Shown in pieces: positions 10,403 through 54,025 of a stretch of DNA of 64,000 nucleotides. Under the pieces are notes generated by a model that ran no database searches, was not told the DNA's origin, and saw only the letters and a list, made by a program, of their open reading frames with translations. The stretch spans positions 408,894-472,893 of the forward strand of contig NZ_FOGP01000001.1 in assembly GCF_900111255.1 (NCBI RefSeq), in the 5' to 3' direction. How positions within the stretch are numbered: the first letter of the stretch is position 1; every line of letters begins with the position of its first letter. Both the position numbers and the translations under genes were made by a program. The stretch is from Parafannyhessea umbonata. GTDB lineage: Bacteria; Actinomycetota; Coriobacteriia; Coriobacteriales; Atopobiaceae.

Positions 10403-11881
10403 ATGGCCAAGGAGCCGAGTGGCGACAAGCTGCTGGACGCGGGCAGCCTGGACGCTGACCAGCTGGACAAGAAGATCGACGCCTACGTCGACGAGGTGTG
10501 GGAGGGTGCCATCGAGGACATCCGCTCGCTGGTGAGGATTCCCTCCGTCGAGGACACCTTGGCTGCGCAGCCGGGCATGCCCTGGGGTCCCAAGGCCCAC
10601 GACGCGCTCGTGCAGGGGCTTGCCATCGCCTCCAAGTTGGGGATGGACGCTCATGAGTGCGAGGGCGGCCGCATTGGCTACGCCGACGTCGCGGGCGCGT
10701 CTGACACGCAGATTGCGCTGATCTGCCACACCGACGTGGTTCCCGAGGGACTTGGCTGGACCGTCGACCCGTTTGACGTCACCCGCCGCGAGGGCTACCT
10801 GATCGGCCGCGGCGTCCTGGATGACAAGGGCCCCTGCGTGATGGGCCTCTACGCCGTCGAATTCGTCGCGCGCCTGGCCCGCGAGAGGGGAGAGCGGCTG
10901 CCCTACACCCTTCGCTTTCTCGTTGGCAACAACGAGGAGACCAACATGGGCGACCTTGACTGGTACCTCAAGAACTACGATGAGCCCGCCTTTGCGTTCT
11001 CGCCCGACGCCGACTTTCCGCTGATCTGCGGCGAGAAGGGCGTCTTCCACGGTCACTTCGAGTCTGCCGAGGTCTTCGGCGGTAAGGGCGACTCGCGCAT
11101 CGTCGAGATGGACGGCGGCACCGTCGCCAACGCCATCCCGTCTCAGGCGACCGCCACGGTCCGTGCGACCGCGGGCGAGCTCGCTGCCACCGACGTGGTG
11201 GACGTCGAGCCTGCGGGCGACGGCCTGGCGAGGCTCACGTCCCACGGCAAGGGCGGCCACGCATCGCTTCCCGAGGGCACCGTCAACGCGATCGGCCTGC
11301 TCGTTGACTACCTGCTGGACAACGGCGTCTGCTCTGCGGACGAGAGGGCCTTCCTCGAGCTGCAGCACGCGCTCTGCAGCATGGGCCACGACGGCGCGTC
11401 GCTGGGCATCGAGAGCTCCGACGACAAGTTCGGCGCGCTGTCCGTCATCGGCGGCACGGTGCGCACCGAGGGCGGCCGCCTGAGGCAGACCATGGACTCT
11501 CGCTATCCCACGTCCATCACCGACGAGCAGATCGCCTGCGCGCTGGCTACGCTGGCCGACGCGCACGCCGCTACCTTCGACGTGGACGCGGTGAAGGTGC
11601 CGTTCTACATCGACCCCGAGTCTCCCGAGGTCAAAGCCCTGCTTTCTGCCTATGACGGAGTCACCGGCAAGACCTCGAAGGCCATCACCATTGGCGGCGG
11701 CACCTACGCCCGCAAGTTCACGCGCGCCTGCGCCTTTGGCCCCCACGACCCCGACGAGGTCGTCCCCGGGTGGGTCGGCCCCGAGCACGGTCCCGACGAG
11801 GGCATCAGTGAGGCCAGCCTGAAGTGCGCCATGAAGGTCTACATCCACGCGATCCTGAACCTGATGCAGCTCGAGCTCTAG
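10403..11881 (+). CDS. M20 family dipeptidase (PepV/Sapep type)
   Basis: A 492-residue cytosolic zinc dipeptidase. The two-metal site is visible: His in ICHTDVVP, bridging Asp in GVLDDKGP, the Glu pair in NNEETN, Asp in SPDADFP and a late His after GGGTYARKF. The lid domain occupies roughly 215-400. It would cleave dipeptides taken up from the medium. The ATG follows AAGGAGGAG. A paralogue with the same motifs lies at 30161-31573, on the other side of the Amadori-product region. An Ala/Asp-rich N-terminal extension of about 20 residues is not seen in the paralogue. Confidence 0.92.
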   Translation: MAKEPSGDKLLDAGSLDADQLDKKIDAYVDEVWEGAIEDIRSLVRIPSVEDTLAAQPGMPWGPKAHDALVQGLAIASKLGMDAHECEGGRIGYADVAGASDTQIALICHTDVVPEGLGWTVDPFDVTRREGYLIGRGVLDDKGPCVMGLYAVEFVARLARERGERLPYTLRFLVGNNEETNMGDLDWYLKNYDEPAFAFSPDADFPLICGEKGVFHGHFESAEVFGGKGDSRIVEMDGGTVANAIPSQATATVRATAGELAATDVVDVEPAGDGLARLTSHGKGGHASLPEGTVNAIGLLVDYLLDNGVCSADERAFLELQHALCSMGHDGASLGIESSDDKFGALSVIGGTVRTEGGRLRQTMDSRYPTSITDEQIACALATLADAHAATFDVDAVKVPFYIDPESPEVKALLSAYDGVTGKTSKAITIGGGTYARKFTRACAFGPHDPDEVVPGWVGPEHGPDEGISEASLKCAMKVYIHAILNLMQLEL

Positions 11882-30160: not shown

Positions 30161-31573
30161 ATGGCAGATGAGATGCTGAAGGCACAGGTCAAGGCCTATG
30201 TCGAGACCAACTGGGAAGACATCGTAAAGGACATTGAGGACCTCGTTGCTATTCGTTCCGTCGAGAACATGGCAGAGGCCACTGAGCAGATGCCCTACGG
30301 TCCCGAGCCGTACCAGGCCCTGTGCAAGGGTGTCGAGATTGCCGACCGCCTTGGCCTGGACGCGCACAACTGCGACGGCCACATTGGCTACGCCGACCTT
30401 GCCGGCGAGTCTGACAAGCAGATAGCGATCATCGCGCACACCGACATAGTCCCCGAGGGCTCCGGTTGGACCTTCGACCCGTTCAAGCTCACGCGCAAGG
30501 ACGGCTACCTGATCGGTCGCGGCGTCCTGGACGACAAGGGTCCCCTCGTGCTCGAGCTCTACTGCGCCAAGTACTTTGCCGAGCAGGTCGCGAAGACCGG
30601 CAAGAAGCTTCCGTACACACTTCGCTGCATCATCGGTAACAACGAGGAGACCGAGATGGCAGACGTCGAGTGGTACCTCGAGAACTTCGAGCAGCCCGAG
30701 TTCCTGTTCTCGCCCGACGCGGACTTCCCGCTGATCTGTGGCGAGAAGGGCGGCTGGGCCGGAACGATCGTCTCAGGCCCCATCAGCGACGTCATCGTCG
30801 ACTTTGACGGCGGCACCGTGGGCAACGCCGTCGCCGGCGAGGCGACCGCCGTGGTAAAGGCCGACGTCGCTTCCCTCAAGGGCACCGACCGCATTGACGT
30901 CGAGGCCGCAGGCGACGGCCTGGTCAAGCTGACCGCCCACGGCATCGGCGCCCACGCATCGCTGCCCAAGGGCTCGATCAACGCCATCGGCCTCCTGGTC
31001 GACTACCTGCTCGACAACGGCCTCTGCTCCGACGCCGAGAGGAAGTTCCTCGAGCTCGAGAAGCTCTGCTTCGACTCCTATGATGGCTCCACGCTGGGCA
31101 TTGCCTGCCAGGACGAGTACTTCGACCCCCTGACCTGCATTGGTGGCACCATACGCACCGTCGACGGCCACTTCGAGCAGACCCTTGACAGCCGCTATCC
31201 CACCTCCATCACCGGCAAGGAGATTACCGAGCGCATTGGCAAGCTCTGCTCCGAGCACGACTGCGAGCTGCGCCTCGACCTCGACATGGTCCCGTTCCTG
31301 ACCGATCCCGAGACCCCTGCCATGCAGACGCTCGTGCGCACCTATAACGAGTACACGGGTCGCAACGACAAGGCCTTCTGCATCGGCGGCGGCACCTACT
31401 CCCGCCACTTCAAGGCGGGCGGCTCCTTCGGTCCCAACGACCCCAGCTTCCCGATGCCCGAGTGGGTCGGCTCCGAGCACTCCGCCGACGAGGGCTTCAG
31501 CGAGGAGCAGCTCAAGCGTGCGCTCGAGATCTACATCGTCTCCGTCGCTCGCCTGATGGAGCTTGACTTCTAG
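30161..31573 (+). CDS. M20 family dipeptidase (PepV/Sapep type), second copy
   Basis: A 470-residue zinc dipeptidase, paralogue of the protein at 10403. Metal ligands appear in IAHTDIVP, GVLDDKGP, NNEETE, SPDADFP and a late His after GGGTYSRHF. The sequence is less Ala-rich and lacks the long N-terminal extension of the first copy. AAGGAG precedes the ATG by eight bases. It is monocistronic, with a hairpin after the stop. It marks the right edge of the frl region; cytosolic hydrolysis of dipeptides (possibly glycated ones) could feed the same metabolism, which is speculative. Confidence 0.93.
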   Translation: MADEMLKAQVKAYVETNWEDIVKDIEDLVAIRSVENMAEATEQMPYGPEPYQALCKGVEIADRLGLDAHNCDGHIGYADLAGESDKQIAIIAHTDIVPEGSGWTFDPFKLTRKDGYLIGRGVLDDKGPLVLELYCAKYFAEQVAKTGKKLPYTLRCIIGNNEETEMADVEWYLENFEQPEFLFSPDADFPLICGEKGGWAGTIVSGPISDVIVDFDGGTVGNAVAGEATAVVKADVASLKGTDRIDVEAAGDGLVKLTAHGIGAHASLPKGSINAIGLLVDYLLDNGLCSDAERKFLELEKLCFDSYDGSTLGIACQDEYFDPLTCIGGTIRTVDGHFEQTLDSRYPTSITGKEITERIGKLCSEHDCELRLDLDMVPFLTDPETPAMQTLVRTYNEYTGRNDKAFCIGGGTYSRHFKAGGSFGPNDPSFPMPEWVGSEHSADEGFSEEQLKRALEIYIVSVARLMELDF

Positions 31574-41424: not shown

Positions 41425-43263
41425 TTGTCTGAGGACCGCACGACAGATCATCGCGCCGGCCGTGACGACGCGGGCGACGCGGAGAGGGACATGCCCAACG
41501 CACACGGGGAGGCACCTCGCGGCGCGGGGGATGACCCCTCCGCCGACTGGGTCGAGGACTCCCTCTTCGACGACCGGCTGGTCGACGACATGCTGGGGGA
41601 GGACGACGAGCCGATCTGGTACGACACCATCGGCATTTTCGGGGGCAGGTCGAGCGCGGCGAGCCGCTACCAGATCACGCGCGCCAAGAAGACCGCGCGC
41701 CTGGCCGAGATCCTGCGCATCGCCAGCCACTACGACATCTTCAGGGGCCTGACGCCCCTGACCTTCCGCAAGCTCCTTGAGGAACTGGGGCCCACCTTCG
41801 TCAAGGCGGGCCAGATTCTCTCGATGCGCTCGGAGATCCTTCCCGAGAGCTTCTGCCACGAGCTCACCAGGCTGCGCTCCAACGTCGAACCCATGGACCG
41901 CGAACTGGTGCTCGAGACGCTGCGCGCCGAGTACCGCGAGCCGATAGAGGACATCTTCGACGCGATTGACGACGTGCCCCTGGGGTCGGCCTCTGTGGCG
42001 CAGGTGCACAAGGCGCGCCTGGCCACGGGCGAGCTCGTCGCCGTCAAGGTGCAGCGCCCCCACGTGCAGGAGATCATGGCGCAGGACATATCGATCATGC
42101 GCTCGCTGGCACGGCGCGCCTCTCGCTTCATAGGAGACGCGCAGTTCCTGGACCTGCAGTCCGTCGTGGACGAGCTGTGGCAGTCGTTCAGGGAGGAGAC
42201 TGACTTTCTGGTCGAGGCCCACAGCCTCGAGGAGTTCCGGCGCAACAACGCGGACTGCGCATACGTCACCTGCCCCAAGCCCTACATCAAGCTCTGCACC
42301 GAGCACGTGGTGGTGATGGACTACGTGGAGGGCATCTCGATAGGCGACACCCGAAAGCTCTCGAGCCTGGGCTACGACCTGGGGGACATCGGACGGAAGC
42401 TCGTTGACAACTACGCCAGCCAGATGCTTGACGAGGGCTTCTTCCACGCCGACCCGCATCCCGGGAACCTTTTGGTCTCGGGTGGCAAAATCGTGTACAT
42501 GGACCTCGGCATCATGGGCAGGCTGTCCTCGCACGACAGGGCGGCCCTGACCGAGATGGTCGAGGCCGTCGCCCTGCGTGACGCCGCCCGTCTCAAGAGT
42601 GGGCTACTGCGCTTCTCGGTGTCCGACGTCTCGGACGTCGACCACCCGGGGCTGCTCGCGGACCTCGACGGCATCATCGCGGACTTCGGCGAGGCGGACC
42701 TGTGCGACCTCGACCTCTCCGCGTTCATGAACGCGCTCATATCGATGGCGCGCAAGAACGGGATCGAGCTTCCCGGCACGGTCACCATGCTGGCCCGCTC
42801 GCTGGTCACCCTTGAGGGCGTGGTCGATGAGCTTCTGCCGGGCACGAGCATCGTCGAGATCGTGCGCGAGCACATTAAGGCGCACTCCGACCTTGCGGAC
42901 AGCGCAAAGGCCGAGGCCAGGCGCCTCTCTCGCGCCTCGCTCGCGGCGACGCGCGGCCTGCTCGACGCCGCCGCGCAGAGCTCGACCGCCATGAACATGC
43001 TCACGCGCGGGCAGCTCAGGATGAACCTCGATCTGGTGGGCTACGAGGACCCCGTGGGCGACCTCGCGCGCTCGGCCGACCGCCTGACCATGGGCATCGT
43101 CATCGCAGGCCTGTTCATCGGCTCGTCGGTCGTCTACTACGCGCGCATCAAACCTGTCATCTTCGGCGTGCCGGTCATCGGCTTCGTGGGCTACGTGGTC
43201 GCGTTCCTGATGGGGGTCTGGCTGGTGCGTAGCATCATGAGCGAGGGCAAGAGGCGCAGGTAG
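41425..43263 (+). CDS. AarF/UbiB (ABC1) family atypical kinase
   Basis: A 612-residue membrane-linked atypical kinase-like protein. The KxGQ motif is KAGQILSMRSEILP, the Ala-rich nucleotide loop replaces the Gly loop (LGSASVAQVHKA), VAVKVQRP carries the lysine, and FHADPHPGNLLV and MDLGIMGRL carry catalytic and metal residues. Two C-terminal hydrophobic helices (about 555-605) anchor it. An acidic, low-complexity N-terminus (1-70) is added. TTG start with AAGGAG upstream, coupled to the phasin-like gene. Family members act as ATPases supporting quinone or isoprenoid-lipid handling; the specific role here is unknown. Confidence 0.9.
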   Translation: MSEDRTTDHRAGRDDAGDAERDMPNAHGEAPRGAGDDPSADWVEDSLFDDRLVDDMLGEDDEPIWYDTIGIFGGRSSAASRYQITRAKKTARLAEILRIASHYDIFRGLTPLTFRKLLEELGPTFVKAGQILSMRSEILPESFCHELTRLRSNVEPMDRELVLETLRAEYREPIEDIFDAIDDVPLGSASVAQVHKARLATGELVAVKVQRPHVQEIMAQDISIMRSLARRASRFIGDAQFLDLQSVVDELWQSFREETDFLVEAHSLEEFRRNNADCAYVTCPKPYIKLCTEHVVVMDYVEGISIGDTRKLSSLGYDLGDIGRKLVDNYASQMLDEGFFHADPHPGNLLVSGGKIVYMDLGIMGRLSSHDRAALTEMVEAVALRDAARLKSGLLRFSVSDVSDVDHPGLLADLDGIIADFGEADLCDLDLSAFMNALISMARKNGIELPGTVTMLARSLVTLEGVVDELLPGTSIVEIVREHIKAHSDLADSAKAEARRLSRASLAATRGLLDAAAQSSTAMNMLTRGQLRMNLDLVGYEDPVGDLARSADRLTMGIVIAGLFIGSSVVYYARIKPVIFGVPVIGFVGYVVAFLMGVWLVRSIMSEGKRRR

Positions 43264-43349
43264 CCTGCTGCTTGCGCTGGCGCTCCGTTCATTGTCTCGT
43301 TACCTTGCGGCGCTATAGTCTCCCAAACCATCGGGCGAGAGGGGACGGC

Positions 43350-44489
43350 ATGCCGCTGGGCACCAACACCGCGTTAGAGGGGCTTGCCCCATCGGAGATC
43401 AGGCGCTTCTCGGCGCTCGCGCGCAAGGTCCCGGGCTGCGTGGACCTCACGCTGGGCGAGCCTGCCGAGTGCACGGCGGGCCCCGTCTGCGACCAGGTTG
43501 CCCGTTCGCTCGACGCGGGACAGACGCACTACCCGCCCAACCGCGGCCGCGAGGGGCTGCGTGAGGCCATATGCGCGCACATGGCGTCCGGCGGGCTCTC
43601 GTTCTTGCCCGAGCAGGTGGTCGTCACCAACGGCGCCACCGAGGCGCTCTTCTCGACCCTCTTCGCGCTGCTCGAGCCGGGAGACGAGCTCATCGTCCCC
43701 ACGCCGGCCTTCCTGCTCTACGGAGCGGTCGCCACCCTCTGCCGCGCCCGCGTGGTCGCGCTCGACACCGCGCCCGACTCGTTCCAGATCGACCCCCAGA
43801 GGCTTATGGCCCTGGTCGGCCCCAGGACCAAGGCGATCGTGGTCACCTCGCCCAACAACCCCACGGGGGCCGTGCTTGACGCGCGGAGTCTCGACGCCGT
43901 CGCGACGGCTGCCGGGCGCGGGCTCTACGTCATCTGCGACGACGTGTACGACCAGCTGGTATATGCGGATGGCGTCCAAGGCTTCGCACTGCGCCACCCG
44001 GAGCTTTCCGACCGCACCGTTGTGGTCAACAGCATGAGCAAGCCCTACGCCATGACCGGCTGGAGGCTCGGCTGGCTCGCCGGTCCCCGGGAGCTGGTCG
44101 ACCGGATCGCCATGGTCCACCAGTACGCCGTCTCGAGCGTCGTGAGCTTCACCCAGGACGCCGCGGCCCTGGCGCTCTCGACGGACGTCGCGCCCATGCG
44201 CGCGGCCTATCGCGCCCGCAGGGACCTCGTGCTGGAGCGGCTGGACGGGATGGGGCTTCCCGTGGTGCGTCCGGAAGGCGCGTTCTACGCGTTCCCGCGC
44301 ATCGAGGAGCTTGGTCTGGGCTCGCGCGACTTCTGCGTTCGCGCCGCTCGCGAGGCGGGCGTCGCCCTGGTTCCCGGCGCGGCCTTCGGGGCCGAGGGCC
44401 ACGTGCGCCTGAGCTATGCCTGCGCGGACGACGCGCTGGTGTGCGGGCTCGACCGGCTTGGCGACTTCGTGGGGGCGCTGCGCCCCTGA
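43350..44489 (+). CDS. Class I/II aminotransferase, probable N-acetyl-LL-diaminopimelate aminotransferase
   Basis: A 379-residue fold-type I PLP aminotransferase. LGEPAECTAGP, TNGATEALFSTL, SPNNPTGAVL, CDDVYDQLVY and the PLP Lys in NSMSKPYAMTGWRLGWLAG, with the substrate-carboxylate Arg in HVRLSYAC. ATG 43350 has GAGAGGGG upstream; a frame starting 26 codons earlier lacks a site. Context points to the PatA step of the acetylated lysine pathway: the deacetylase and lysA-dapA-dapB-dapH lie just beyond an inserted block. Its last 63 bases and the following junction are duplicated at 52383. The substrate is inferred from neighbours. Confidence 0.85.
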   Translation: MPLGTNTALEGLAPSEIRRFSALARKVPGCVDLTLGEPAECTAGPVCDQVARSLDAGQTHYPPNRGREGLREAICAHMASGGLSFLPEQVVVTNGATEALFSTLFALLEPGDELIVPTPAFLLYGAVATLCRARVVALDTAPDSFQIDPQRLMALVGPRTKAIVVTSPNNPTGAVLDARSLDAVATAAGRGLYVICDDVYDQLVYADGVQGFALRHPELSDRTVVVNSMSKPYAMTGWRLGWLAGPRELVDRIAMVHQYAVSSVVSFTQDAAALALSTDVAPMRAAYRARRDLVLERLDGMGLPVVRPEGAFYAFPRIEELGLGSRDFCVRAAREAGVALVPGAAFGAEGHVRLSYACADDALVCGLDRLGDFVGALRP

Positions 44490-44571
44490 CGCGGGGGGGC
44501 GAGGGGCACGCGCGCGGCGCGCGGCACGGGCCCCGCTACGGCATGAGCGTCAGCGCCTTGAGCGCCGCGAG
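44427..44571 (+). repeat. Left copy of the 145-bp direct repeat bounding the inserted block
   Basis: It contains the last 63 bases of the aminotransferase gene, the short junction and the final 3' codons of the convergent deacetylase gene (minus strand). It aligns with 52383-52525 with four mismatches and two single-base gaps by eye (about 96 percent). Homology ends sharply at 44571 (GCGAG then ACGTATACT). Confidence 0.92.
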
Positions 44572-44659
44572 ACGTATACTTACGGGAGTCGACCTGTGCA
44601 GAACGGCTCTTTTAGTGTTGCCGCAAAAAAACGGGGAACATGTACGAGGAGGCTTCACC

Positions 44660-47435
44660 AGGAATTCGAAGAACGGGACAGTCGCAAGGCGTTTCTTGAT
44701 TCCCCTTGGCATCATGCTGGCAATGGCTGCGGCAATCCTCGCTGGTGCTGGCGCGCCTACTGCATTTGCAGATAACGGCGATCTTGCTGCCACCGAAACT
44801 CCGTCTCTTGGCAGTGGCGATAAGGCCGTTCGCACCATCATGATTTACTTGGATGGCGCCAGCTCCGAGGAGACCGGCTCCGCGTGCACTGACATGCTCG
44901 AGGAATAGATAGCATCGAAGTTCAATCGCAGCGATTTCCGCATCATCGTCATGACGGGCGGCTCGCTCAAATGGCATCTGGATGCGGGCTACCTACGGGA
45001 CAAAGACGACCACACCGGCACGCTGACCGAGATCAGCAGCGAGTACAATCAGGTCTGGGAAGTGTATGGAGCCACCGATAACGCCGAAAGCTACTTGAGG
45101 CTGTTAGACGGCGACGGCGTGAGCGACGACGGGGCTGCTGCCAAGAAGTCCGAAGACGAGCTCATGAGCGACCCGAACACATTGAAGAAGTTCATCAACT
45201 ACGCCCATGGCATCGCGCCGGCGGGCAAATACGATCTGATCCTGAACGACCATGGCATGGGCCCCGAGGGCGGTTACGGCGTGGATGACCACGACACCGG
45301 GGACTCACATGCGTCAATATCCGTGCGCCAGCTCCGGCAGGCGATCTCGGACAGCGATGTTGTGCGGGATGAGGGCAAGTTCGACTTCATCGACTTGGAC
45401 TGCTGCATGATGGGCAATTTCGAAACGGCGCTCGCCTTGTGGGATTACACAGACTATTATTTCGGGTCGGCGGACGTCAACCCGTTCCCAACGGTCGATT
45501 TCACGGCACTGTTCGATTACCTCGCAGATGCCCCCGATATGGATGCCTGGGACTTGGGACGCAAGTTCGTGGACCTTTTCGTCGATTACTATGACGAGCA
45601 TCCCGAAAAGGTATCGGTAGGCCGTTCGGTCGGCCATTGCGCGATCAACGTAAAAGACCTCAAGGATAGTGGGATCGTGGACAAGCTGCTGACGGTCGCA
45701 CGGCAGATGAGGGCAGAGGCGACACCGGGAGCTTCTACGACGAGATCCGCGTTCCGAAAGACGATTACCATTTCGTCATCACCAACCTGCAGGACTTCGC
45801 GACCGTGGTGGAGCAGCTCGGGATCGGATTGTACGAAACCGACTGGCAGGAGCCGGGGTTCCTGAACGCATACACGCAAACGGCGCTCGAGATCCAGAAC
45901 ATCTTGCATGATAAGGACATCGTCTATTCGAGGCACACGCAGAAATCGAAGGAAACGTATGCGTTCTTCGGCAGGAACGATGACGAGAGCATAAAGATAA
46001 GGGCTACGAAATCCCCGACAAGCGGGCTGAGCATCTTCCACTTCTTCAATCCTGCCAAAGGCGATGCTTCAGGGGAAGTGTCCTTCTACATCGATGCGAT
46101 GAACGAGTTGGCTGGGTCGTATGCGGAAGGTTCGACCGAGAGGGAGCTGCTCGAGACGTACATGCAGGCAGTTCTCGATTACGAGTTGATCTGCAACGCC
46201 GGCGTGGCCGTCTCGACCCTTGTGGAAAACGGTTGCGCGCCTGACGAGATCGACTACGACAAGGTTCTGGAATACCTCCAGTCCCAGAAGTCCGAAAACC
46301 ACGTCAAGAGGGGATGGGAGTACATCTCGAAGGCCTTTAAGGGAAGCGACAGGGACGTGCCGGCATGGCTCGGCGGGATCATAGACATCCAGCGCGAGGA
46401 GGTCTTGGATCACGACAAGGTCTCCCTTGCGACGGAATCGAAGGATGGGACGGATTACTATCGCATCGACGTTGCGGACACGCCCAAGCGGGTCATCGAC
46501 GTCCCGGTGCTCACGGTGACGGCCAACAGGGAAGACGAGGTGTTCAAAAAGCCCACCAGGACGTTTTACGGCACCCGGGCGCCCGGCGGCGCGAGGGGGA
46601 GTCTGCTGACGATTACATGAGCGCCACCGACTCTTCCTACCTGATCCCGAAGTTCGACGGGCAATGGTATGCCGTGAAGGATGCGGATGGGAAAATGCAT
46701 CTGGCATCCGATGCGTCGGACAACTCCGTTTACGCAGTTTTCTACTTGGGCGAGCAGCTTTTGGGTGCGGGAGAGCTGGTCTTCGATGAGAACGGCAAGG
46801 CGAAAAGCATCTACATCTACGGCAACACGATACCGATCCCCCTCGATACGCTCGATGACATGGTGACGGTGGCCCTTTGCAATGATCCGAGCCTTGGGAA
46901 AGCGGACCCCATAGACATGTTCATGCTGGAGAAGACGAACGCCGAGCTCGTGAAGGACAGCTACTCGAACCTGGGCATAGACGACGTCGAGGTCAAGCTC
47001 GCCATCTCGGACATGTACGACGTCCAGCATGAGGTCAAGCCGGAACTGAGCTTCGATCCTACCGGCGGGCGGTGGGACGACGGCACGGACGCCGTCAGGA
47101 AGTACGAACCCGCACTGGAAAGCGAGTTCGCCATCATCGACGCCCCGACGCGCGATGGCTATACGTTTGAATGTTGGGAAGGGTCTGAGTACCAACCAGG
47201 GCAACAATATCATGCGGACAGCGATCATGTGTTCACGGCAAAGTGGAAGAAGAACGACTCCAGCAGTGGTGACGACAACACTTCTGGTGGAGCAAAGAAT
47301 GCCCAAACAAAATCAAGCCCGAGCAAGACGCCAAGCACGGGAGACCTCCTGAACCCGGCGCTCCTGCTGCTGGCGGTGCTGGCGTCAGGAGGGACGGTTG
47401 CGGTGGCTGCGAAGAAGCGAAAACGCGAATTGTAG
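44660..47435 (+). pseudogene. Clostripain-like (C11) surface protease, multiply broken
   Basis: A secreted, wall-anchored cysteine protease relic of about 920 codons. AGGAGG at 44647-44652 is correctly spaced for a start at 44660, but that codon is AGG instead of ATG; it is followed by a perfect signal peptide (NSKNGTVARRFLIPLGIM...AFA). An in-frame TAG is at 44906-44908. One base is missing near 45718 (gcagaGGcgac region) and another in the G-run at 46595-46599. C11 motifs survive: ILNDHGMG (His) and FIDLDCCMMGNFETA (Cys). The 3' end has an InlB/Flg_new-type repeat (GYTFECWEG...FTAKWK) and a TPSTGD sortase-like signal with membrane helix and KKRKREL tail. At least four lesions; non-functional. 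Confidence 0.88.
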
Positions 47436-47579
47436 CCGGGAACGAATTGCTGGGTTCCAGCATCCGGCAAGTGCTGTGGTACGGCCGCTAGAGTTAGTTT
47501 TTGCAAACAAACACATTTCCGCAGGTAATTCTGGCTCTACGATGAGTTTGTTGTGTCCATGATGCGCGTCGTAACGTTA

Positions 47580-48791
47580 TCATCGCGATGCCTGCGTGGG
47601 GACGAAGATCGTCACCCTGGTCCCGCCCGCCTCGCGGGTTCCGATCTCCAGCGTGCCACCGCACTGCGCTTTTAGCCGCTCGCGGACGTTGTTAAGGGCG
47701 AAGTGCCGCTCATCCTCATCGGGCGGCGTAAAGCCAGGGCCGTTGTCCTCCACGATGATCTGCACGCCGCACCCAAGGTCGCGCGTGGCGACGGAGACCT
47801 GCAGCGGCTCCGAATCGGGGTCCATGCCGTGCTTGACGGCGTTCTCTACGATGTGCTGCAGCGTGAGGGGCGGAACGTTAAACGACGTGACCGGCGTGTC
47901 GAATTCCACGAACACCTGTCCCTCGTAACAGGCCTGCTCCACCGCGAGTTATGCCTTCGTATGCTCCAGCTCCCGCTCGAAGGAAATCGTTCCGTCCTCC
48001 GCAACGATCTCGAAGTTGCTCTGCAGGTAGCGGGAGAAGTCCAACGTTGTCTGCTGGGCCATTTCGGGATCCTTGGCAATAAGGTAGTAGATGCTCGTCA
48101 GCGTGTTGTGGATGAAGTGGGGCCTCATCTGCAGGACGGCGACGTGTGCTCGTTCCTGCGCGACCTCCTCCTTCTGGTCCAGGTAGCGACGGACCAGGCC
48201 AACCAAAAGGAGGAGCTCCACGAGAATGACCTGAATGGGCGGCGCCGCGAGAAAGCAGGCCAGGAACATAAGGCCCTGTACGTTCGTTATGTCTTTCCAG
48301 TACCGGACAAGCGTTACGAGGTTGATTGCCGTAAGCGCGGCTATCGAGGCGAACGTCAGGGCAATCCATGGCCCGAAATGGGGATCTTGACCAGCAACGA
48401 CGCGCGCTTCCCCACTCAGCTTCGCCAGACACCCCGCAACGATCAGGATGCCAGTCAACACACATTCGATGCGTACAACCGCATTCGTTCGGAAGTCTCT
48501 CCCACTGCAGTAGACGAAATACGCGAACACGAGCAAGGAGGGAATCGGGGCTATCAGCGTTTCGGCAAGGCTCAGAGCAAGCACGGACGCGTACGACACG
48601 TCGGCTTGTGCAGCGCCGTTTCCCAAAAGGCCTACTACCGCACGGGCAATCGTCGATATCAGGATGGCGACGCACAAGCCCTTCGGCCATCGCTCGACGT
48701 CGCGGGCGATATAAAGCAATATCAGACCAAACGCCCCGAACAGGAGCGCGGACATATCCAGTGTTGCATAGAAATACTGTTCCGTTATCAC
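47580..48791 (-). pseudogene. LytS-type sensor histidine kinase with in-frame TAA
   Basis: About 403 codons. Start GTG 48791 overlaps the regulator gene stop (GTGA). Six or so membrane helices lie in 1-215, then the His_kinase box LQMRPHFIHNTLTSIYYL, and the C-terminal HATPase domain with IVENAVKHG (N box) and VEDNGPGF (G1). A TAA at 47949-47951 interrupts ELEHTKA-stop-LAVEQACYEGQ, precisely where this family has a conserved Tyr (HxxAYLxVEQ), so a one-base change from TAC or TAT explains it. The stop separates the His domain from the ATPase domain, abolishing the kinase unless read through. Confidence 0.85.
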
Positions 48792-49378
48792 AGCAGCCCT
48801 CGCACGGGATGCCGCAGCCTGGGAATCAGCCTGCGGACCTCCTCCGCCTTCAGCGGCTTCAGTATAAAACCGCAGGCGTCGGTGTTCCATGCGTCGAGGG
48901 AATATTCTGGGTATGCGGTGAGGTAGGCCACGTTAGCATTCGGCCTAATTTGCAGGAGCTCTTGGCAAAGGTCAAGTCCATTGGTCTTGCCCAGCTTGAT
49001 GTCGAGAAGCACCAGCGCAACTGGGTTGTTCTTGAAATAGCGCACAGCTTCCGCCGGGCTTGCGAGACCGACGACGTTTGCGTTCGGAAGCGCCTCCCGC
49101 AGAACGGGGAGGCCCTCTTCGAGGGCAATGGGACTGTCGTCCACCAGCAGGACGTTCGGGGCATCGTGGGACTCGTCTGCAGCTGCGAGCAGCGCCGCGG
49201 CGCCGGCGTCAAGCGCCCTGGCTATATGGGAGATCATGGCGGCGTTGGGCAATCGGTGCCCGGTTTCCCAGTTGGCGACCGCAGAACGAGTCACGTGCAG
49301 CCGGTTTGCCAGCTGCTGCTGTGACAGACCCTTTTCGGACCTCGAGCGACACAGCGTTTCTCCGAAGTAGTTTGCCAT
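48788..49378 (-). CDS. XRE-type HTH plus receiver-domain regulator
   Basis: 196 residues with reversed architecture: an N-terminal XRE/Cro HTH (1-66; SQQQLANRLHVTRSAVANWE) followed by a C-terminal response-regulator receiver (about 74-190; VLLVDDSP acidic pocket, phosphorylated Asp in VLLDIKLG, Thr in YLTAYPEY, Lys in ILKPLK). Conventional regulators carry the receiver first. It is coupled by a 4-base overlap to the sensor kinase gene that follows. With that kinase truncated by a nonsense codon, the regulator probably works unphosphorylated or with another kinase. The ATG start has GGGCC upstream, a weak ribosome site. Confidence 0.88.
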   Translation of the reverse strand: MANYFGETLCRSRSEKGLSQQQLANRLHVTRSAVANWETGHRLPNAAMISHIARALDAGAAALLAAADESHDAPNVLLVDDSPIALEEGLPVLREALPNANVVGLASPAEAVRYFKNNPVALVLLDIKLGKTNGLDLCQELLQIRPNANVAYLTAYPEYSLDAWNTDACGFILKPLKAEEVRRLIPRLRHPVRGLL

Positions 49379-49569
49379 GGCCCTTCTCGTCCCATCCCAC
49401 CGCGCGAATAGCTTTGCTGCCTCGAAGCAGAATGCAATTCGGTCAAATATCTACCCACATACATAAATCCGCATTCACCAAAAGTGCTTGCATGAAACCC
49501 GTCACGAAACGAAACACCTTTCTGGGATCCCCCCCGCCCATTCTTAAAAGAAAATGAAAAAAAAGAGTG

Positions 49570-49615
49570 GGTTCTTTGGTTGGCAGTACGGCTGGTACCA
49601 GCCAAACAAAGAAGA
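49570..49615 (+). repeat. Long inverted repeat in the leader of the small membrane protein gene
   Basis: TTCTTTGGTTGGC (49572-49584) pairs with GCCAAACAAAGAA (49601-49613) with one mismatch, around a perfect palindrome GGCTGGTACCAGCC (49590-49603, partly shared). It lies 30 bases before the gene start. Either an operator or a leader hairpin. Confidence 0.6.
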
Positions 49616-49643
49616 ACGAATAGCGGAGAAAGGAGCTTGAAAA

Positions 49644-50141
49644 ATGGATGGGAAAATCAAGAACGCGAAGAGCACGTTGAAGATCCTGGGCATCCTGAGC
49701 ATCCTCCTGGGTGCCTTGGCTATTCTCCTCGGCGCCATGTCGATTGGCGGCGGCGGCGTTCTCGCTGGAGGAATTGCCACCTCGGGCGGTATGAGCTCAG
49801 CCGATGCGGAGACCGCCACCATGGTGACAGGCCTGGTGCTGGTCGGGGGAATCGTCCTCCTGATTTCGGGAATCTTCACCCTGCTCCTGGGTATCTTCTC
49901 GGTCCGTGCGTCGAACGATTTCAGCAAGGTCGGGCCGGCTTACGCCTTCGCGCTTATCGATCTCATCGTCTCGGTTGTCGGCGTCATCGTGAACTTTGCC
50001 GGAACTATGAATGTCTCGTCTCTGCTCGAGGGCGTCGTCGGAATCGTTTTCGCCGCCTGCATCTTCTGGGCAGCGAAGACCATCAAGGATTACAATGCTG
50101 GTGGTGGCAACCCCGGCAATGGCCAGCTCCCTCCACAGTAG
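49644..50141 (+). CDS. Small four-helix membrane protein, unknown function
   Basis: 165 residues with four hydrophobic helices (about 12-32, 38-50 Gly-rich, 62-92, 97-145), a Gly/Ser-rich loop and a Gly/Asn/Pro/Gln C-terminus. No enzymatic motif. AAAGGAG nine bases before the ATG. It resembles the many DUF4064/TMEM-like small Gly-rich membrane proteins of Gram-positive bacteria, without a firm family assignment. It lies in the foreign block between the two-component genes and the relaxase, followed by a strong terminator. Confidence 0.75.
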   Translation: MDGKIKNAKSTLKILGILSILLGALAILLGAMSIGGGGVLAGGIATSGGMSSADAETATMVTGLVLVGGIVLLISGIFTLLLGIFSVRASNDFSKVGPAYAFALIDLIVSVVGVIVNFAGTMNVSSLLEGVVGIVFAACIFWAAKTIKDYNAGGGNPGNGQLPPQ

Positions 50142-50169
50142 TGAGCACCTGTTTCAATCGCATCGCTGG

Positions 50170-50212
50170 AAAGGAGAGCGCCCGGTGTTTTTCCGGGCGC
50201 TCTCCTTTTGCA
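50170..50212 (+). terminator. Terminator after the small membrane protein gene
   Basis: Perfect 16-bp stem AAAGGAGAGCGCCCGG (50170-50185) with 50193-50208, a short T-rich loop and a TTTT tail. Confidence 0.92.
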
Positions 50213-50264
50213 CCGCGGAGCGTGAAGCCCTCGACGGCACGAAATCGCTGGTTGACGTAGTACA

Positions 50265-51566
50265 CTACCACCGCTCCGGTTCCGGGACGGCATGATGGGG
50301 CATCGGCACCCGAAGCCGATGTCCCCTTTTTTGCTTCAACGGGACCAGCCGCCCCTGTCGTGGCTGACCGAGTGTTGGTGCGAGGGGGGAGTCCCCGTGC
50401 GAGCCGGAGTGGTGGTCGTGCCATGAGCCCGAGTCGTGCCGGGGCTCGTGGTTGCTGACCGGCCTGGGCCTGCGGGCGGGCAGCATCCCGTGCCCGACGG
50501 CGAACTTGTGGGCGTCCCCAAAACGCCCAAGTTTATCGGCTATGGTCGCCTTGCCCTGCGCGTCTTCGGCGGCTTCCAGGTCGCGCTCCAGCAGCCCGAT
50601 CTGCCAGTCGATGTCGGCGATCGAGGCGATGCGGGGGTCTCTGAGCGCCTCCATGAGCCTCGCCAGCTCGCCGAGCTCGTCCAGGTCGCGAACCAGCACG
50701 GCGCCCTCGATGCGCTTGTCGATGGCATCGCATTTTAGGGCCGTAGGATACCCCCACTCCCATTCCAGCGCCTGCTTGCCGTAGCAGCGCCCCAGCTTCT
50801 CGCCGCCGACCCTGCGGGCTGGATGGTCGGAGAGCGCGTAGAGGAAGTCGCGTCGCCGTGCGTTGGGGGAGTTGAGCGAGAGCTCCACGCCCAGCGCCCC
50901 CAGAACGCTGCGGTAGCTCGCCTCGTCGTGGGCGAGGGCGCGGGCCGTCCGGGCGCGCTGCCTGATGTCGGCGACCCAGCTGTACCCGCCCTTGCGCTCA
51001 ATTCTGCGCTCGGCTCGCCCCTTGTACTCGCGTTGGGTCGTCCTGGCCTCGCCGCCCTTGGCTCGCCGGTCGAATACCGCGTGCTCGTCGGCGAGGTATC
51101 CCAGCCCCCGCTCGCGGGCCATCCGCTGCAGGTCGCGGTTGAGCCCCTTGGGGTCGGGGACGTGAAGGCGCCTTCCGGTCTCGACGTTGGTGTTGCCCAC
51201 GACGACGTGCGCGTGCGGGATGGCGTGCTCGTTGTCGTCGTGGTAGACGATGGTCACCTGGTACTCGCCGAAGTGTCTCTCCGCCCAGCTGAGCGCCAGC
51301 TCGCGCAGGCGCTCCAAGTCGACCTTGTCTGCGGGGTCGGGGCTCACGACGTAGTGGCGGTACGTGATGGCAGGCCTGCCGCGGTAGGGCTCGCCGTTGC
51401 CGTAGACGGCCCTGAGCTCGTCCATCTCCGCCGCCCAGCCGCGGGCCTCGCCGCCGCCCCGCTCCATGCAGTCGAGGTTGACGAAGTCGTGGCCTATGGC
51501 GCGGCCTCCCCGCTCGAGGTAGCGCTCGATGGCTGCCATTGTTTCCATATTGAGGGGCGTGGGCAT
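50265..51566 (-). CDS. Mobilisation relaxase (VirD2/MobA-like), N-terminus probably trimmed
   Basis: 433 residues. The relaxase domain shows YLERGGRAIGHDFVNLD near the N-terminus (the Tyr lies in the usual nicking region), then FGEYQVTIVYHDDNE and the HxH metal motif IPHAHVVVGNTNVETGRRLH. A helical middle region and a Pro/His/Ser-rich tail follow. It would nick an oriT and lead plasmid transfer. Relatives have about ten more N-terminal residues with a GHT-type motif; here the first residues overlap, head-to-head, the start of the AT-rich ORF at the composition change, suggesting a trimmed 5' end. The only clear mobility gene of the block. Confidence 0.82.
   Translation of the reverse strand: MPTPLNMETMAAIERYLERGGRAIGHDFVNLDCMERGGGEARGWAAEMDELRAVYGNGEPYRGRPAITYRHYVVSPDPADKVDLERLRELALSWAERHFGEYQVTIVYHDDNEHAIPHAHVVVGNTNVETGRRLHVPDPKGLNRDLQRMARERGLGYLADEHAVFDRRAKGGEARTTQREYKGRAERRIERKGGYSWVADIRQRARTARALAHDEASYRSVLGALGVELSLNSPNARRRDFLYALSDHPARRVGGEKLGRCYGKQALEWEWGYPTALKCDAIDKRIEGAVLVRDLDELGELARLMEALRDPRIASIADIDWQIGLLERDLEAAEDAQGKATIADKLGRFGDAHKFAVGHGMLPARRPRPVSNHEPRHDSGSWHDHHSGSHGDSPLAPTLGQPRQGRLVPLKQKRGHRLRVPMPHHAVPEPERW
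50297..50332 (+). terminator. Terminator-like hairpin inside the 3' end of the relaxase gene
   Basis: GGGGCATCGGC (50297-50307) pairs with GCCGATGTCCCC (50315-50326), then TTTTTT on the plus strand. It could stop read-through from the left, or mark the true end of an older unit. Confidence 0.6.
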
Positions 51567-52500
51567 GAACGAGATCGCAAGGCGAATACTGGTTGATCAG
51601 GGGCTAAAACCTGTTGAATTTGAACAACCCCATGTAATTGATTTAATTCGAAAACCTATATCAGATGTGTGGACTGTTGTATGCACACACAATGACAAAG
51701 TTTTCGGCACTCCGGCAATCTTTTGCTGTTTTGCCAATATGGAACATAAAGCGCAAATCTTAGAGGAATCCAATTGGCTCAAGCATCCTGATAGCTTTTC
51801 TCCTGGATTTTGCATGAGCGCCGGTTCTGCGCGATTTGATTCAAGCAGCTATGACGGTTTTCACTTCATAGTTATGGAGCAGTATTTTCACAGCCTCGAA
51901 GAAGCCCAATTCCATTTGAACCAAGAATTTGCGCTTCTCTTCGAGCTGTATCGAGACCCTAGTGGTAATTACTACAAGATTGACGAATGTGGCAATCGTG
52001 AACCAGTTGTTGTGTTTGAGAAACACCAGGTAAAGGTAAAAACTAAATACCTACTCCGCTATATGTGCGCCAGGCAATTCCTATTTATCCAATTCGTCGA
52101 TTTGCGGGTAAGTACACCAGGCCATATGCCGTTTCATACAGATCCTATGGGCGACGACAGCGATGCTGGCCCAAATTACATTTTCGATCGCTGGTACCAA
52201 GGCAACGAAACTGAAAACTATCTGCTATCGATGATATATGCCAGAAGCTATGTTGAACCTGGCCCTATTGAAGACTGCGGACTCTGGCCTTACGACGAAG
52301 ATGAGGAGCAGTACCCGGAGTTCATTATTAATGAGCTGCCTGACGGGTCATTCGAACGTTTCACATGCGAAGAATCAAAGCTGACGACGCGCTGGTGCGC
52401 GGGCTCGACCGGCTTGGCGACTTCGTGGGGGCGCTGCGCCCCTGACGCGGGGAGCGAGGGGCACGCCGCGGCGCGCGGCACGGGCCCCGCTACGGCATGA
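51565..52500 (+). pseudogene. AT-rich chimeric ORF, unknown function
   Basis: The ORF reads MNEIARRILVDQG to ERFTCEESK (about 272 codons) and then runs into the direct repeat at 52383, where the frame becomes nonsense derived from the aminotransferase 3' end (TTRWCAGST...), ending at 52500. The native C-terminus is thus lost. Composition is clearly AT-richer than every neighbour. Its start has no good ribosome site and overlaps the divergent relaxase start, so the 5' end may be cut too. The protein is soluble, acidic and Tyr/Phe-rich with no recognised motif. Probably a truncated imported gene. Confidence 0.6.
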
Positions 52501-52525
52501 GTGCCAGCGCCTTGAGCGCCGCGAG
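52383..52525 (+). repeat. Right copy of the direct repeat bounding the inserted block
   Basis: 143 bases matching 44427-44571. It contains a detached copy of the last 63 bases of the aminotransferase gene and the functional 3' end of the deacetylase gene on the minus strand. Confidence 0.92.
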
Positions 52526-53647
52526 GCCGCCCGCGAGCGCTCGCTCGTCGAAGTCGAAGCCGTCCGAGTGGAGCGAAGGCACTTCTCCCACGCCCAAGAG
52601 CAGGAACACGCCGGGCAGCTGCCTCTGGTACCAGGCGAAGTCCTCGGCGATCATGTACGGCTCCTCGAGGATCTGGAGTTCCGGCACGCGCTCGGCGACG
52701 CGCCCGAAGAGCTCCGGGTCGTTCGTGACGGGTGGGTATCCCTCGGCGAAGTCGACCTCCGCCGTGCAGCCACAGCTCGCCGCGGCGCGTGCTGCCAGCT
52801 CGCGCACCTCCGCCATCACCTCGTCGCGCAGCTCGACGTCGAACGTGCGCAGCGAGCCCTCCAAGCGCGCCCTGTCGGCTATCTGGTTGCAGACGAGGCC
52901 GCCCTGCAGGGTGCCGAACTTGAGGACGACGCCCTCGCGCCCGCGCGCGGCCTCCCTCTGGCACAGCCGCTCGATGTGGCCGTAGGTCGCGGTTAGGAAG
53001 CGCGCCGCGGCCTCCACCGCGTCGGCCCCCAGCTCGGCGCGGGCTATGTGGGCGGCACGGCCCAGGAAGGTCACGTGCGTCTCGTTTCCCGCTGCCAGGA
53101 GCGCCCCCGACCTGCCGGCAAGCCGTCCCTCTGGAAGCCCGGGCCACAGGTGAAGCCCGAAGATGCGGTCGACGCCGCACTCCTCTAACGCGCCGCTCTG
53201 GCAGATGCCGCGCGCGCCGCCCGTCGTCTCCTCGGCGGGCTGGAAGACCAAAAGGAGGCTCCGTCCCAGGCGATCCAGGTTCTGCGGCAGCCATTGGGCA
53301 AGCGTCAGCAGCATCGACATGTGCCCGTCGTGCCCGCAGGCGTGCATGTGCCCCTCGATGCGCGAGGCGTACGCCGCGCCCGTGCGCTCGATGACGGGCA
53401 GGGCGTCCATGTCGGAGCGCAGTGCGGTCGCGTGCGGGGTGCCCCTGTCGACGTAGAGGCAGAGCGCGGAGCGCGAGGGCGAGAAGACCGTTGCCCTCCC
53501 GCCGCGGGACGTGATGTCCCCGGCGACCGGCTCGAGGATCCCGCGCACGTAGGCGAGGGTGCGGGGGAGGTCGTAGTCGAGCTCCGGTATCTGGTGGAGC
53601 GCGCGGCGGTGCTCCCTGAGCATCCGCCCCTCGATCGGCTCTGCCAT
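52490..53647 (-). CDS. M20 amidohydrolase, probable N-acetyl-diaminopimelate deacetylase
   Basis: 385 residues, M20D/ACY1 family. Segments: REHRRALHQIPELDYDL, LRSDMDALPV, MHACGHDGHMSML (metal His), FQPAEETTGGAR (catalytic Glu) and SLHSDGFDFDE (late His). Start ATG 53647 with GGAGAAG; the 26-codon longer frame is not supported. By context it releases acetate from N-acetyl-LL-DAP, the last acetylated-pathway step before epimerisation; relatives include indole-amide and hippurate hydrolases. It is divergent from the lysA riboswitch region and was convergent with the aminotransferase before the insertion. Confidence 0.85.
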   Translation of the reverse strand: MAEPIEGRMLREHRRALHQIPELDYDLPRTLAYVRGILEPVAGDITSRGGRATVFSPSRSALCLYVDRGTPHATALRSDMDALPVIERTGAAYASRIEGHMHACGHDGHMSMLLTLAQWLPQNLDRLGRSLLLVFQPAEETTGGARGICQSGALEECGVDRIFGLHLWPGLPEGRLAGRSGALLAAGNETHVTFLGRAAHIARAELGADAVEAAARFLTATYGHIERLCQREAARGREGVVLKFGTLQGGLVCNQIADRARLEGSLRTFDVELRDEVMAEVRELAARAAASCGCTAEVDFAEGYPPVTNDPELFGRVAERVPELQILEEPYMIAEDFAWYQRQLPGVFLLLGVGEVPSLHSDGFDFDERALAGGLAALKALALMP

Positions 53648-53809: not shown

Positions 53810-53965
53810 TCCCAACGAAAGAGGTGCGGAAGTGATGAGCGCGGGCGAGCCGGCAGGCGCGGACCCCGCGGGAGGCTAAATCCGCCGAACTCCTTGGCCC
53901 GGCAGGGCGAGGGGTGGGCCAGCGGGGAAGACCCGCCGGACTGTCTGTGGGGGCATCCCACAGTT
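53810..53965 (+). promoter_or_regulatory. Lysine riboswitch-like (L-box) leader of lysA
   Basis: The lysA leader shows L-box hallmarks in order: AGAGGTGCGG (53820-53829), CCGCCGAAC (53882-53890), GTGGGCC (53914-53920) and GGACTGTC (53938-53945). Two mutually exclusive hairpins follow: CTGTGGG (53945-53951) with CCCACAG (53957-53963), or that same CCCACAG with CTGTGGG at 54000-54006, close to the ribosome site. Lysine would bias the fold and shut lysA. Assigned from remembered consensus; not modelled. Confidence 0.55.
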
Positions 53966-54025
53966 GCGCTTTCCCGACGCGAGCATTCGCGGGCCGCAGC
54001 TGTGGGACTGGCGTCGGGGGGCATC

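Follow-up and report, generated by a model that had tools for sequence, protein, structure and literature searches.

A composite fragment of foreign DNA, 7,811 bp long between two direct copies of a 145-bp host segment, occupies the former spacer of about 44 bp between two convergent host genes at the lysine (DAP) locus of Parafannyhessea umbonata (Table 1; positions are those of the window, that is, the whole 64,000-nucleotide stretch of DNA that was analysed). The block is a degraded composite; as an insertion it is of a familiar general type, but the stretch of host DNA that it duplicates is unusually long. On the sequence evidence, we regard it as an even call that the fragment was captured by illegitimate recombination with the 145-bp target duplication arising in the same step.

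The original prediction placed direct repeats of about 145 bp at 44427-44571 and 52383-52525 and proposed aligning the two regions as a check; local alignment indeed spans 145 columns, of which four are mismatched and two are 1-base gaps, with a longest exact run of 54 bp and a score of 125, as against at most 22 for 300 random pairs of window segments. A whole-genome search returned no third copy of the segment, the next match being about 50 bp long at 81% identity. Both host genes were correctly described as complete outside the repeats, with the final 63 bases of the aminotransferase gene falling inside the left copy; measured with the right copy, the stop-to-stop spacing of the aminotransferase and deacetylase genes would be 44 bp. 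A lysine riboswitch (Rfam RF00168, 54 bits) at 53811-53979 on the forward strand, upstream of lysA, is consistent with a lysine/DAP locus.

Table 1. Features and joints of the insertion locus, in window coordinates.
Feature	Positions	Strand	Basis or remark
Host class I/II aminotransferase, complete	43350..44489	+	Pfam PF00155, E 2.8e-56
Left repeat copy (aminotransferase 3' end, intergenic spacer, last deacetylase codons)	44427..44571		Alignment
Junction J1, host to foreign DNA	44571..44572		1 bp (G) common to host and donor
Clostripain-family (C11) cell-surface protease pseudogene	44660..47435	+	PF03415, E 1.8e-21
Sensor histidine kinase, split by in-frame stop	47580..48791	-	PF06580, E 2.7e-11
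Response regulator with N-terminal helix-turn-helix, intact	48788..49378	-	PF00072 and PF13560
165-aa membrane protein, intact, no family match	49644..50141	+	Conserved neighbour in donors
MobA/VirD2-type relaxase	50265..51566	-	PF03432, E 1.8e-12
Junction J2 (internal), between relaxase 5' end and HYP start	51530..51565		Relaxase match ends near 51530
HYP, N-terminal half (residues 1-273) of a 543-aa protein	51565..52382	+	Relatives in other genomes; 44% GC
Junction J3, foreign DNA to host	52382..52383		0-1 bp microhomology
Right repeat copy of host segment	52383..52525		Alignment
Host M20-family amidohydrolase/deacetylase, complete	52490..53647	-	PF01546, E 1.8e-36; TIGR01891 above cut-off

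The insertion event is inferred from a comparison that took in the genus-mate G001 and other Atopobiaceae relatives. In G001 and in G010, the aminotransferase gene converges on the M20 deacetylase gene, followed by lysA-dapA-dapB, at a single-copy empty site where the stop codons lie 42 and 43 bp apart, respectively; because these relatives have a single copy at that spacing, the block is an insertion and the single-copy junction is ancestral. The two genes are convergent in G002 and Olsenella profusa (G008) too, with spacers of 276 and 1,036 bp, and the aminotransferase orthologues that G001, G002 and G010 carry at their empty sites are 66-68% identical. An empty site of this kind in relatives, and the adjacency of the aminotransferase, deacetylase, lysA, dapA and dapB genes once the block is removed, had both been anticipated, and both are found in block-free Atopobiaceae, the genus-mate included. 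The relatives further suggest that an Arg codon in the right repeat copy is ancestral and the Cys codon in the left copy, which serves the functional aminotransferase gene, derived. In G001, the aminotransferase gene is immediately preceded by a thiamine-type transporter locus with a TPP riboswitch, which in G008 and G002 lies close by. Here, that locus is about 80 kb away (369500-371500 of contig C3), and in the stretch that ends with the aminotransferase gene (window 41425-44489) an ABC1-type kinase gene takes its place; the region upstream of the aminotransferase gene has therefore been rearranged.

The description of the intervening DNA as lower in GC, with a relaxase and broken genes, agrees with the GC survey and the gene calls: at 58.2% GC, the block is below 97% of equal-sized genome stretches (mean 63.5%). 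Compared with its relative at locus L063, the C11 protease gene has lost its start codon and carries an in-frame TAG near 44905 and frameshifts at 45725 and 46593 (intact donor reading frames encode 936-977 aa), and the kinase gene, 95% identical to those of L063, L064 and L065, is interrupted by one stop, near 47943-47949. Alignment with full-length relatives shows that the first 13-16 or so residues of the relaxase have been replaced, because donor homology ends near 51530. The second half of HYP is likewise missing. Two genes of the block are still open, those for the response regulator and for the 165-aa membrane protein. No transposase or integrase family was matched among the scanned reading frames of the block, and no replication gene was recognised in it. 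HYP has a GC content of 44%, compared with 60% in the rest of the block, and the two appear to be of different origins. The 543-aa HYP family (also at L104:371-2002 and L195:7217-8845) has no Pfam, NCBIfam or PADLOC match; its relative in L195 sits among abortive-infection-like genes, and its C-terminal part contains an R-x5-H stretch (RSAGAAHGKG) that resembles a HEPN motif by eye; HYP is possibly an uncharacterised defence protein.

The remainder of the block can be traced to another family of the same order. Positions 44572 to about 51530, comprising the protease, the two-component system, the small membrane protein and the relaxase, are mostly 83-93% identical to DNA of that family, with 44572-50200 forming a single continuous match of 88% identity to one contig (G343:C150), a second contig (G344:C635) extending the match to 50470, at the relaxase 3' end, and the relaxase DNA being 77% identical to that of contig C50 of G351, in which a tyrosine integrase gene (PF00589, E 4.8e-14) lies directly upstream of the relaxase gene. 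We infer that this donor family is Eggerthellaceae or Eggerthellaceae-like. A 45-bp core is present without mismatches in contigs of G351, G343 and G349; it corresponds to the part of tRNA-Asp from the anticodon loop to the CCA end, and the tRNA-Asp of the host itself agrees with it in 41 of the 45 positions. Judging from the overlapping contigs, the protease, two-component system, membrane protein and relaxase are probably parts of one tRNA-Asp-associated mobilizable element. Elements of this family (tyrosine integrase, MobP-like relaxase, DUF3800 and DUF6998) were observed in Eggerthellaceae-like genomes at L098 (1075-11944; G351:C50), L094 and L063; the family is apparently uncharacterised and possibly arranged in tandem arrays. 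Phage origin was rejected, as the block had no match in 50,697 phage records and the relaxase no relative in viral contigs; against plasmid records, the relaxase had, among the matches listed, only matches below 30% identity.

Donor comparison also fixes the nature of the edges, neither of which is the end of an element. On the left, the G343 and G349 contigs stay homologous to each other upstream of the point at which the window switches to host DNA, and the donor att core lies 186-197 bp outside that point. On the right, HYP has relatives in six other genomes of the order, four of which match up to residue 273 and run on to 543-545 residues, and the window turns to host sequence exactly at that residue, cutting the gene in half. 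The internal joint is likewise without homology, HYP beginning at its start codon without its upstream region. With edges that cut donor sequence and at most 1 bp of microhomology, the joints bear the marks of illegitimate joining rather than those of homologous exchange or of integrase or transposase action.

In the mechanism proposed, the composite fragment would have been captured by illegitimate recombination, with no transposase, integrase or homology acting at the joints. The host DNA would have been opened with a 145-bp overlap, either by a staggered break that was filled in on both sides or, alternatively, by a replication fork that changed templates, copied the foreign DNA and came back 145 bp upstream, such that the duplication would have been made in the same step as the insertion; the cargo would afterwards have lost its protease and kinase genes. 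Both genes of the lysine locus stayed complete because the duplicated stretch covers both gene 3' ends and the spacer, whereas an insertion without duplication would have needed to fall within the 44-bp spacer to spare them, and the insertion probably survived for this reason. Ku is the usual bacterial end-joining protein; since the genome has no Ku gene, Ku end joining was rejected, and the explanation has to postulate either another way of joining the ends or template switching. Hairpin-driven fork stalling was also rejected, the spacer folding no better than shuffled sequences (z 0.06) and therefore giving a fork no particular cause to stall at this point. ComEC is present in the genome; neither its presence nor the absence of Ku decides between the routes. 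The locus resembles illegitimate insertions with target duplication in that foreign DNA, joined without homology, lies between two direct copies of the target, although no bacterial example with so long a duplication is known to us.

The principal competitor is a Campbell-type event, in which a circle with a slightly different copy of the 145-bp junction would have integrated by a single RecA-dependent crossover; we consider this rather unlikely, though it is the second choice. Homologous recombination can proceed over 145 bp of sequence that is 96% identical, the two copies differ as would be expected if one came from another strain, and an imported left copy would fit the derived Cys codon as well. 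In E. coli, linear incoming DNA may be circularised by ligation and integrate by a single crossover (PMC3240628). Two nonsense mutations over about 182 mutation-weighted sites give the block a change of about 1.1% per site (95% range roughly 0.1-4%), and four substitutions over 143 sites (2.8%) give about 1.4% per repeat copy, a rough agreement that is compatible with copies identical at insertion. The repeat copies nevertheless differ by two indels, many more per site than the block genes show, where about 6.1 kb contain two frameshifts; this hints that the two copies were perhaps not identical when the insertion took place. The 2.8% divergence itself does not separate illegitimate insertion from single crossover. 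Of the original suggestion of single-crossover capture, the direct host copies at both edges stand, as in insertion-duplication integration generally, but the crossover needs a donor molecule already holding the host junction, and none carrying that host segment together with the foreign DNA was found among 399 genomes of the order. A host segment would, moreover, have had to be joined non-homologously to foreign DNA on both sides beforehand, which shifts the illegitimate step elsewhere, and the block, with no recognised replication gene, combines its parts as in no other genome searched. One-step illegitimate insertion is simpler and is favoured. Homology-facilitated illegitimate recombination, which the same source describes for competent species and, at a low rate, for E. 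coli conjugation (PMC3240628), is a more doubtful prospect still: DNA of a related strain with a foreign insert beside the junction would have recombined homologously on one side and illegitimately on the other, 145 bp out of register. It likewise captures heterologous DNA with one joint lacking homology, and both the presence of ComEC and the apparently derived codon in the left, functional aminotransferase copy speak for it; yet it expects one homologous joint, while both inner joints here are without homology, and it presupposes an earlier insertion in another strain.

Integrative mobilizable elements (IMEs) in tRNA genes offer the closest resemblance in content, the relaxase and cargo of the block matching an element beside the 3' end of tRNA-Asp (contig C50 of G351, and G343 and G349). 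The original prediction allowed for a site-specific insertion whose integrase has been lost. If the inserted DNA was a mobilizable element and the repeats are its attL and attR, both the relaxase and the tyrosine integrase beside it in the G351 relative would suit this account. The related Eggerthellaceae-like IME, however, has its integrase next to the relaxase, whereas the block contains no integrase and no att core, has a relaxase cut at its 5' end, lies away from tRNA-Asp and is not bounded by att sites. The donor core is absent from the window even with up to 12 mismatches allowed, and the integrase side of the related element was not found elsewhere in the genome, the matches being to the relaxase start and to the tRNA-Asp gene (contig C5). 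With the left edge displaced from the att core and the right edge in mid-gene, the claim did not hold up: insertion by the known donor integrase is refuted, and a site-specific origin is highly improbable. An assembly artefact is equally far-fetched; the genome is a draft of 13 contigs, but it is 99.8% complete with 0.4% contamination, the repeat copies are distinguished by six alignment columns and have no identical run longer than 54 bases, the joints at the inner repeat ends lie in unique sequence and must therefore be crossed by reads, and the block genes bear decay lesions of their own. A DDE transposon was rejected for want of any transposase family among the scanned reading frames and on the length of the duplication, which at 145 bp is, as had been pointed out at the start, far beyond a transposon target duplication.

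Similar duplications were sought in 1.60 Mb of the 2.06-Mb genome as direct repeats of at least 50 bp and at least 80% identity within 40 kb. Only four pairs emerged, the 145-bp pair among them, and the other three provided no convincing second case of a long-duplication insert in the sequence surveyed. One is a 270-bp pair (92% identity; 543838-544106 and 549478-549747 of contig C3) in a surface-polysaccharide locus, where an intact glycosylphosphotransferase gene has a remnant of its 3' end lying 5.4 kb upstream and separated from it by low-GC genes; another is a 73-bp stretch of a TPP riboswitch, of which relatives likewise have several similar copies; the last is 64 bp long. Between the 73-bp partial and the complete riboswitch copies lies a two-gene module (367073-369770 of contig C3; 347 and 254 aa, no Pfam match) that, by eye, looks like an AbiE-type toxin-antitoxin pair. 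Within the window, direct repeats of about 73% identity at 10666-11532 and 30376-31224, with a second stretch at 11678/31370, are probably paralogous genes.

The locus represents an unusually readable scar of DNA transfer between families: one can see from which lineage the DNA came, what the empty site looked like, exactly where the joints lie and what was duplicated. The case illustrates that an insertion beside lysine-biosynthesis genes can leave both neighbours whole when the duplication covers both gene ends, and, if the duplication arose in the same step, it would document target duplications far longer than those that transposons usually make. The broader proposition, that Atopobiaceae capture foreign linear DNA via a Ku-independent replication or repair route duplicating 100-300 bp of the target, is a long shot; if true, DNA would repeatedly be inserted beside essential genes, without breaking them, by a route that has gone unrecognised.
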